Below are positions 3,545 to 57,046 of a DNA stretch of 64,000 bases, in pieces. Positions within the stretch are counted from its first letter, which is position 1, and every line of letters begins with the position of its first letter. A model generated the notes under the pieces. That model made no database searches and had not been told where the DNA came from. It was given only the letters and a program-made list of their open reading frames with translations. The DNA comes from Lachnospiraceae bacterium (GTDB lineage Bacteria; Bacillota; Clostridia; Lachnospirales; Lachnospiraceae). Location: contig JAIDFQ010000062.1 in the NCBI GenBank assembly GCA_029054245.1, positions 1 to 64,000 of the forward strand, in the 5' to 3' direction. Made by a program: the position numbers and the translations under genes.

Positions 3545-4425
3545 GTTACTTTTCACGCCACGCCAAATTTTGGCATACTAATATGCCGGTGTTATAGCAT
3601 TCTGCTTTGGCACCGGCTTCTCTTTTGCTCTGGGCAGACGCTTTCGTCCATATATATTTCAGAAATCTTCTGGTATACATTTTCGTCACCCGCACGCAGC
3701 AATATACCACGCTCAGACTGTCACAGATATAGCACAGGTTCTCATAGCTCAAGTGACCGCCTGATTCTGCTTTCTCTTGTATACCCTTGCCAGCCTTTCA
3801 CACAAGGAATTATTGGCGGGTCCCCTCGTATCATGCAAGAACAGCAGTTCATTTTCTTTGTACCCCGCAGTTTTATAAATAGGTTATATCCTTCCTGGTA
3901 GTAATCATTTGGCAGCTCATCCGCATATTTAGCTTCGCTTTTTTAGGATCCTGTCATATTCCATTTCAAATCCAGAAACAACCCACGAATCTGTCTGTGC
4001 GTCTTCCGAAAACCCGTTACGGTAATGCAGCATTTCCTGGAACAGAGAGAGCATCTGCCCGTTCCATGTCAATTCTGGCTCGTTCTGTATGCTCCCGGTC
4101 AGATAGCATATATCATGCTGTATGCATTCCCAATGACCGGTACCGGTCCCATAGCTATAAAAGGTCTTGTCGTAGTTATGTACGACCGTTCCCACATAGT
4201 CCTCCAGCGTGGTGCCTCTGACTCCCGCATGCCCCTTTTTTCTCCCTGCCTATAAGCAACAGCTGAAGCGTCAGGCTTTTGCGATAATCTGTAGCAAACC
4301 ACCGATGGTCCGGCAAGCCGATAGGTACTGCAGATCATCTCATAGATTAACTCCATATCTGCTTCCAAAACACGAAGGAGCGTGCGATGATACAGAAGAC
4401 TTTGCCCCGGATGGAGAATCTAACC
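3545..4425 (-). pseudogene. IS66-family-like transposase remnant with several frameshifts
   Basis: No intact gene is present, but joining reading frames on the minus strand gives a recognisable piece of a transposase. In order it reads a segment with LIYEMICSTYRLAGPSVVCYR, then LEDYVGTVVHNYDKTFYSYG, then NEPELTWNGQMLSLFQEMLH, then LLFLHDTRGPANNSLCERLA followed by RVYKRKQNQ. The LHD..xPANNSxCER stretch resembles the C-terminal acidic motif of the IS66 DDE domain (NNxxER) in Lachnospiraceae elements. Several frameshifts separate the pieces, and the start, the TnpB partner and the ends of the element were not found. It is a fossil that marks old insertion next to hypEF. The family call rests on remembered motif patterns. 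Confidence 0.65.
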
Positions 4426-32875: not shown

Positions 32876-33267
32876 AGGAATCCGTGCCAATGTCAGTCAG
32901 TTAAGGGGTAGCGTCGGCAGGGCAGCAGTACCGTATGGATGGAGAACAGACCGGGCACAGGGGTCGGCATATGGTATCGTTTCAAGTCTCTGCGAAAAAT
33001 CGGCAATTTCACTTACAGAATGGTGAAACACCAGGGGAATCCGGCATGGATGCCGGATTAAGAGCCATGCGGCACGGATGCCGCACGGCTCTGTCCTCGT
33101 ACGGTTTAAAACATTTATGCCCATTCTGTTAGTGAAATCCGATTCTTGAGATGAGACTTGAAACGATACCATATGCCGACCCCTGTGCCCGGTCTGCTCT
33201 CCATCCATACAGCACTGTTGCCCTGCCGGCGCCACCCCTTAACTGACTGACACTGGCACGGATTCCT
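32876..33267. repeat. Long palindromic element, copy 1 (392 bp)
   Basis: Left and right arms of about 100 bp (from 32876 and ending at 33267) are near-perfect reverse complements. Inside them is a 194-bp core (32975-33168) whose own ends pair (TATCGTTTCAAG with CTTGAAACGATA). At its tip are two hairpins: TCCGGCAT with ATGCCGGA (33038-33059) and AGAGCC..GGCTCT with an inner GCGGCA stem (33061-33092). A second copy with the same core lies at 56675-57028. It ends 13 bp from the stop of the gene at 33280 and separates two convergent genes, so it can also act as a terminator. Confidence 0.92.
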
Positions 33268-56568: not shown

Positions 56569-56674
56569 ATTCCATTCCTCCGAATGTATGTAAGAAAATG
56601 CTACGTTTTTTATTTTACACTATTTCCATAATTTTGGATATAGGTATTTTTGATGGATTTGGGATTTTGGGGGT

Positions 56675-57028
56675 AATCGTTCAGCCTGCAAGGACGGCGC
56701 AGCAGAAGTGATAGGACACCTACAGAAAGGAACCGCTGCCGCTGACATCACCACTATCGTTTCAAGGCTCTGGCGAAAAATCGGCAATTTCACTTACAAA
56801 ATGGTCAAGCAACAGAGGAATTCCGCCATGGATGGCGGAATTAGGAGCCATTAGGCAGGATGCCGCTTGGCTCCGACTCGTCCGCCTTGAAATATTTAAA
56901 GCCATTTTGTTAGTAAAATTCGATTTTAAGACGAGACTTGAAATGATAGTGGTGATGTCAGCGGCAGCGGTTCCTTTCTGTAGGTGTCCTATCGCTTCTG
57001 CTGCGCCGCCCTTGCAGGCTGAACGATT
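56675..57028. repeat. Long palindromic element, copy 2 (354 bp)
   Basis: Arms of about 80 bp starting AATCGTTCAGCCTGCAAG at 56675 pair with CTTGCAGGCTGAACGATT ending at 57028. The core at 56755-56948 is exactly 194 bp, the same as in copy 1, and is alike in sequence. The two tip hairpins are kept by paired changes (TTCCGCCAT with ATGGCGGAA at 56819-56842; GGAGCC with GGCTCC at 56844-56874). The outer arms share no sequence with copy 1. It lies 19 bp past the mfd stop codon, again just 3' of a leftward gene. Confidence 0.92.
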
Positions 57029-57046
57029 GCGGATTTGGAAAAGGCG

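Follow-up and report, generated by a model that had tools for sequence, protein, structure and literature searches.

The palindrome at positions 56,673 to 57,030 of the window, by which we mean the whole 64,000-nt stretch of DNA analysed here, is probably one of many dispersed copies of a palindromic transposable element that lacks genes and has ends of the IS66 type (ISBst12 group), a TwoAYGGAY core and two arms that would be kept matched by copying at the DNA level. The window, which belongs to the genome referred to below as G000, holds two such palindromes; the one under study is called copy 2 and the other copy 1.

Two palindromes with similar cores

Copy 2 is a 358-bp element on the plus strand with GTAATCGTTCAGCC and GCAATCGTTCAGCC at its arm tips. 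Its 5′ arm (96 nt, positions 56,675 to 56,770) is 96% complementary to the 3′ arm (56,933 to 57,028), with which it forms an inverted pair, and the B-type core between them (56,771 to 56,933) matches the Rfam family RF01731 (TwoAYGGAY) with 82.7 bits, the gathering score being 43. Copy 1, also on the plus strand, consists of a 5′ arm of 115 nt (32,876 to 32,990) that is 94% complementary to its inverted 3′ arm (33,153 to 33,267), and of a B-type core (32,991 to 33,151) that scores 84.2 bits. The match spans the full model in both cores. Both loops, ATGGAT and ACGGAT, are intact in copy 1; copy 2 has ATGGAT and a second loop that is one base short (A-GGAU). Arm complementarity of 94–96% over 96 and 115 nt is far beyond chance.

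The two inverted pairs described by the first-pass annotation are therefore present at these positions, and inspection of the sequence confirmed two more of its observations: the cores at 32,975–33,168 and 56,755–56,948 are alike and equal in length (194 nt each, with 162 of 197 aligned columns identical), and differences between copies 1 and 2 occur as pairs in both arms. Its statement that the outer arms have no sequence in common is correct for copies 1 and 2, whose 5′ arms show a similarity of 0.510 against a shuffled mean of 0.505 (sd 0.028), but not for the family, where arms are shared with other copies. In the same way, a location 13–19 bp past the stop of a leftward gene was found for both window copies but is not general across the 45 copies of the genome.

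Putative terminal inverted repeats of the ISBst12 type were located at the tips of copy 2, on the left at 56,673 to 56,686 (plus strand, one mismatch to GTAACNNYTCAGNC) and on the right at 57,017 to 57,030 (minus strand, two mismatches). Because matches of the GTAACNNYTCAGNC type with up to two mismatches occur 30 times across the window, against 19.4 expected, single end matches of copy 2 mean little; it is their placement at both arm tips that would mark them as ends. The sequences next to these ends agree at only three of eight positions, so that copy 2 has no target duplication there, and GGATTTGG touches the right end but lies 10 bp away on the left. Terminal inverted repeats starting with GTAA, as in the ISBst12 group, were found in the family and in copy 2; no recognisable IS66-type end was found in copy 1. 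Elsewhere in the window, positions 3,758 to 4,207 (minus strand) hold a degraded sequence similar to an IS66-type transposase (30% identity, interrupted by four stops).

Distribution and genomic context of the TwoAYGGAY core

A covariance-model search of G000 returned 45 matches to TwoAYGGAY, 44 of them over the cut-off; by sequence, the 44 typed cores comprise 11 of type A and 33 of type B. When 60 genomes were searched, G000 included, 17 carried the core, each with between one and at least 38 scored matches. All 17 belong to the genus of G000, in a sample that held no other genus of its family. Class-wide, matches were present in 36 of 391 genomes; these represent 24 of 223 genera, among which five are further genera of the family of G000. 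In this set from other genera up to seven loci per genome were scored, one of the 29 new loci (L280) was left out and three lay just under the gathering score.

Copies in G000 sit between larger ORFs without a fixed orientation to them. A called ORF flanks the copy on each side in 40 of 45 cases, and the four possible strand arrangements occur 14, 9, 9 and 8 times; with neighbours so inconsistent in strand, we rejected cis-regulation by the copies. ORFs of 81–151 aa overlap 19 of the 45 copies and were taken as spurious. Rfam types TwoAYGGAY (RF01731, clan CL00106) as Cis-reg, and a table in the 2010 paper (PMC2864571) enters it as a probable RNA that is probably not cis-regulatory and gives human gut, gammaproteobacteria and Clostridiales as its sources. 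In the literature covered, the family has no assigned function. Arms, ends or transposition are not mentioned in the accessible sections of the 2010 paper or of one other, and a palindromic transposable element with this core appears to be unreported, within the limits of our literature search.

Plasmid and phage collections gave no match at blastn sensitivity. Viral contigs yielded one 17-mer match, which we took as chance since the surrounding 651 bases look coding by eye and contain no core. A pattern scan of genome contigs matched 89 stretches, of which two MITE-like ones were used.

Neighbouring copies are arranged head to head. Where two copies lie no more than 1.5 kb apart, they are divergent, with their 5′ ends facing, in 4/4 cases in G000 (C69:30527-31156, C69:111489-112112, C36:55886-56411 and C34:121661-122496) and in 21 of 22 distinct cases elsewhere, among them L032, L052, L140, L203, L215, L219, L224, L232, L248 and L258. 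The total is 25/26, where chance would give one quarter; several cases are orthologous, and the 22 cases elsewhere remain from 26 rows after four repeat listings were dropped. Since a palindrome alone has no direction, something must read the orientation of the core. Twenty of the 22 pairs elsewhere were compared (both pairs at L218 were left out): their spacers measure 9 to 936 bases, and 17 of the 20 join cores of the same type, with a similarity of 0.795 versus an average of 0.744. Three of the four head-to-head pairs in G000 join an A with a B core. In two related genomes (L032 in G035:C23 and L033 in G019:C15) a head-to-head pair adjoins the RNase P RNA gene, with one copy within about 75 bp of it.

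Copy 2 was inserted together with both arms

The orthologous region was compared in related genomes. At the copy 2 site, the flanks are separated by 20 bp in G004 and G009 versus 385 bp in G000, and neither arm is present in any of six relatives whose flanks adjoin (G004, G009, G019, G035, G010 and G034). G031 has other DNA between the flanks and was not counted among the empty sites. Because neither arm is present in the six relatives, copy 2 is an insertion that brought both arms with it. The first-pass annotation had asked whether one arm might be native at an empty orthologous site; this comparison shows that neither copy 2 arm is, and its proposal that arms are formed by inverted duplication of flanking DNA is not supported at this site. 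The copy at C36:40215 is likewise absent in G004 and G009. When 2.2 kb around copy 2 was searched for host genes from which the arms might have been copied, the only arm matches in G000 were to further copies of the element.

G004 has an orthologue of copy 1 at the corresponding site, and the arms of the two are 76–77% identical. Between the two genomes, 21 columns changed in both arms (11 transitions and 10 transversions) and eight in one arm. The right arm of copy 1 has about 12 bp more than its G004 orthologue, and this extra segment is complementary to the left flank; in this one case the element may have gained about 12 bp by inverted duplication of its flank.

Arms could be measured in 41 of the 45 copies of G000 (all except L005, L064, L072 and L073). 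Their median length is 94 bp (43–170), and the 3,162 positions compared contain 86 mismatches and 11 indel columns. A larger set comprised 144 copies from 12 genomes, namely 44 copies of G000 (L072 left out) and 100 from 11 genomes taken best score first, three of 113 having been dropped as partial core matches or repeat cores. In this set the median arm is 78.5 bp long and the median identity between the two arms of a copy is 94.5%. Arms form subfamilies: those of copy 2 align with five G000 copies (on C37, C34, C36, C26 and C72) at 79–83% identity, and copy 1 aligns with one (C26:18182-18548, 80%). Arm sequence is thus common to copies at different sites, although only 35 of 8,128 arm pairs (128 arms) can be aligned. 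At the site of C69:42402, the outer arm ends are similar in G000 and G004, but the core between them is of type A in G000 and of type B in G004 (L140, G004:C14:7900-9800); opposite C69:46710 of G000, G009:C9 and G004:C14 (L142, L143) have an apparent single arm and no core. This core difference and these single-arm remnants suggest that cores can be exchanged and that elements decay.

IS66-type ends and target duplications

The best-preserved copies terminate in GTAACNGTTCAGNC and are bordered by 8-bp target duplications. Outer segments within two mismatches of GTAACNGTTCAG were found in 24 of 113 B-type cases, versus one with the reverse complement of the motif and none with a shuffle, and in 9 of 172 A-type cases, versus two and one. 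The end motif was read off some of the same B copies, and therefore the independent support comes from the A-type copies of other genomes, the short MITEs described below and the target duplications. Ends with up to two mismatches on at least one side are carried by 22 of the 144 copies and most copies have none, so an IS66 origin of most copies is inferred from the shared core.

In 19 of the 144 copies, ends lie at an equal offset on both sides (up to four mismatches per side and six in all). The adjacent 8-mers of these copies agree at 4.3 of 8 positions, versus 2.2 in re-paired flanks, a value not reached in 10,000 shuffles, with single values from 0 to 8. A 360-bp element, G000:C37:556-915, has an 8/8 target duplication, and a 331-bp element in G034 (L420) one of 7/8. 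A search for target duplications by the longest word shared between the sequences near the two arm ends gave only a slight excess over shuffles; anchoring the ends on the GTAAC motif brought out a clear signal.

Genus-wide, exact GTAACNGTTCAGNC has 236 matches in 37 genomes versus 23 for the reversed motif; at least one match occurs in 31 of the 37 genomes, and 29 of the 37 exceed their own control. Thirteen short elements of 69–188 bp (L407-L419), picked for paired exact ends, have GTAACAGTTCAGCC-type ends and lack the TwoAYGGAY core. Their duplications agree at 8/8 positions in six, at 7 in one and at 1 to 6 in the remaining six.

GTAAC-type ends with 8-bp duplications are shared with the ISBst12 group of the IS66 family. 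The published ISBst12-group element ISDge4 has the ends GTGACTACTCAGCA and GTAACTGCTCAGCA and an 8-bp repeat (PMC12898284). Classical IS66 ends start with GTAAGCG, also with 8-bp repeats (PMC11946415), whereas those of the palindromes start with GTAAC. Unlike ISBst12-group elements, the palindromes have no transposase gene, are almost completely palindromic inside and carry an RNA-family core. With bacterial MITEs they share small size, absence of genes, terminal inverted repeats, target duplications and many copies, and MITEs of 69–188 bp with the same ends occur in the genus of G000; they differ in that palindrome arms make up most of the element, hypervariable between copies and matching within a copy.

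We also looked for a transposase that could act on these ends. In G023, which belongs to the same genus as G000, the 1,824-bp ISBst12-type element L170 resembles the palindromes in its ends: it has GTAACTATTCAGCC at both ends and an 8/8 duplication, AGGAATTA, on both sides. Its open frame of 485 aa belongs to the IS66 transposase family (Pfam PF03050, 72.6 bits, over the cut-off), and NCBIfam IS66 gave 144 bits, under the cut-off of 180. In G018, the ends of the element L168 are of a similar kind but lack a clean duplication, and its protein is over both cut-offs (Pfam PF03050 and NCBIfam IS66). A search of G000 for an intact helper with matching ends found none. The number of IS66 genes is not related to that of the copies: G019 and G010 lack such genes and carry 36 and 29 matches, but G008 has ten and carries 2. 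An IS66-type transposase probably moves, or has moved, the element in trans.

Arms change in pairs, with no preference for G-U in the mismatches that remain

Changes between copies were counted in the 35 alignable pairs, which share copies (31 distinct) and are not independent. Both arms were changed in 569 columns and one arm in 135, with 17 complex columns. The paired changes comprise 309 transitions and 260 transversions (46% transversions); those in a single arm comprise 125 transitions and 10 transversions (7% transversions), so that transitions make up 93% of single versus 54% of paired changes. Gaps were paired in 491 columns versus 45 unpaired, many paired gaps coming from arms of different length.

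The mismatches left within arms were then classified in 131 copies over 8,728 positions, after leaving out the 13 of 144 copies with arms under 40 bp. Of 292 mismatches, 101 were G-U, 117 A-C and 74 transversions (p=0.31). Core helices gave similar results, with 41 G-U versus 37 A-C in type A (14 of the 37 in one column pair) and 9 versus 14 in type B. Mismatch density rises slightly from the inner to the outer arm (133/4527 versus 159/4166, p=0.02), a trend too weak to be used. Because the leftover mismatches show no preference for G-U, the data favour DNA-level copying between arms, which would fit better than selection on an RNA. The excess of transitions among single mismatches does not follow from copying alone and also fits tolerance of G-T and A-C in a DNA hairpin.

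Homogenisation of inverted-repeat arms by template switching has been described for short inverted repeats in yeast (PMC8604942; see also PMC7202029). The process that we infer here resembles quasipalindrome template switching in making the arms identical; it differs in that its arms would measure about 94 bp and belong to a transposable element of a bacterium, whereas the yeast repeats are short.

The core has an RNA strand signature outside the genus of G000

A functional RNA is expected to constrain its annotated strand and to tolerate G-U but not A-C. We compared the folds of the annotated strand and of its complement for each core extended by 30 flanking bases, using sequences free of N (136 of 144 copies and 29 of 30 RNase P genes; L447 was left out). 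Among copies from other families the annotated strand was the more stable one in 42 of 43, and among those from the remaining genera of the same family in 23 of 25, a total of 65/68 for other genera. In contrast, it was more stable in 62 of 136 copies in the genus of G000 and less stable in 74, which is not the behaviour of such an RNA; RNase P of the same genus favoured the annotated strand in 29/29 cases. The Rfam model picks the orientation of a match and could favour the annotated strand, an effect that is not visible in the genus of G000.

The core alone gave the same picture. The annotated strand was better in 38 of 43 copies from other families and 21 of 25 from other genera of the same family, versus 40 to 39 (A) and 26 to 29 (B) in the genus of G000. 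Arms alone in this genus gave 38 to 31 for type A and 20 to 36 for type B, the latter against the annotated strand (p=0.044). In other genera, the arms mostly reach less than 45 bp past the core; longer, less perfect arms occur in G370 and G172, and weak examples of them in G424 and G278. In G370, a genome from another genus of the family, the copies L263 and L475 have such less perfect arms of about 240–260 bp.

The palindromes share with the TwoAYGGAY RNA the core structure, terminal loops of the AYGGAY type, of which the second is one base short in copy 2, and scores far above the gathering score. They differ from it in that the core lies inside a palindrome of about 280–450 bp with copy-specific arms, that some copies have transposon ends, and that the strand signature of other genera is lacking. 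Because the RNA-like strand constraint was not found in the genus of G000, we assign the core to RF01731 by its sequence and structure only.

Discussion

The first-pass annotation suggested a new class of mobile or RNA element. Mobility is borne out by the empty sites, the 8-bp target duplications and the IS66-type ends of the better-preserved copies. The RNA half of the suggestion is right in that the core is a catalogued RNA family, although its strand signature is missing in this genus, and "new class" is too strong, IS66-ended MITEs being known and the core already catalogued. On the reading that we consider probable, an IS66-type transposase would move the element in trans. After insertion, one arm would be copied onto the other at the DNA level, by template switching during replication or by hairpin conversion, and a mutation in an arm would either be lost or be copied to its partner. 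Arm sequence would then drift and become copy-specific while the arms within a copy stay complementary. The core would be a structured RNA that the element captured; in this genus it would have become subject to the same copying and thereby have lost its G-U wobble pairs. That copies 1 and 2 have seemingly unrelated arms would follow because the arms of each copy evolve together and fast.

Other origins of the matched arms were weighed against these data. If the arms of every copy arose by inverted duplication of the DNA next to it, this would explain why copies 1 and 2 have no arm sequence in common, and the roughly 12 bp that complement the left flank of copy 1 look like such an event; but neither arm exists at the copy 2 site in six relatives, arms are common to copies at different sites, and it is at the arm tips that the ends common to copies and the target duplications are found, so we reject this as the main source of the arms and regard it as very improbable. 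The first-pass annotation also proposed that structure is kept while sequence drifts, which describes the pattern well, although the mismatches favour arm copying over RNA selection as its cause. If the whole hairpin were a functional RNA, selection on the helix would keep the arms complementary through compensatory changes, and three results speak for this: the core is a curated RNA family, the annotated strand is favoured in 42/43 and 23/25 copies of other genera, and neighbouring copies are locked in orientation in 25/26 cases. Such an RNA should nevertheless leave G-U mismatches in excess over A-C, which neither the arms (101 versus 117 of 292) nor the cores (41/37 in A, 9/14 in B) do; its fold should be more stable on one strand, as with RNase P (29/29), yet the copies show no difference (62/136) and the B arms lean the opposite way; and its paired changes should show the transition excess expected from G-U intermediates, whereas 46% are transversions. 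We consider this explanation unlikely.

In place of copying, the arms could be kept perfect because a DNA hairpin or cruciform is under selection, for instance where a transposase or nuclease uses it as a substrate. The equal tolerance of G-T and A-C and the rarity of transversion mismatches are what a hairpin formed by either strand would give, and the orientation-locked pairs also agree with it. Paired transversions are common, however (260/569), and each would need two separate events; gaps, too, are mostly paired (491 versus 45 columns, many from unequal arm lengths). This, too, seems to us an improbable account. Several results sit badly with the transposable element whose arms are copied at the DNA level: most copies have no recognisable ends, copy 2 has no target duplication next to its ends and six of the 13 short MITEs have no clear one; the search of G000 gave no intact helper with matching ends, and the numbers of IS66 genes and of copies disagree; the difference in transitions between single and paired changes (93% versus 54%) is not predicted by copying that is blind to the mismatch; and head-to-head pairing means that the direction of the core matters, for which a DNA palindrome alone offers no explanation.

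More tentatively, a structured RNA may have turned into a DNA element in one genus. TwoAYGGAY would have been captured between IS66-type ends, its helix extended into a long palindrome and its wobble pairs erased by copying; the head-to-head pairing would show that the core has retained a direction, for instance a signal for a strand-specific protein or for transcription that acts when a new copy lands beside an old one.

On this more tentative reading, base-pair covariation in these elements would be the product of DNA copying and not of RNA function. The palindrome arms covary almost perfectly and show no sign of RNA constraint, a warning that covariation in repeated palindromic elements can stem from copying at the DNA level. 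The strand test, which compares the folds of the annotated strand and its complement and G-U with A-C mismatches, separates the two cases within one family. In the genus of G000, TwoAYGGAY seems to be carried about by an IS66-type MITE as its cargo, which would give the family a mode of spread and a helper that can be tested.
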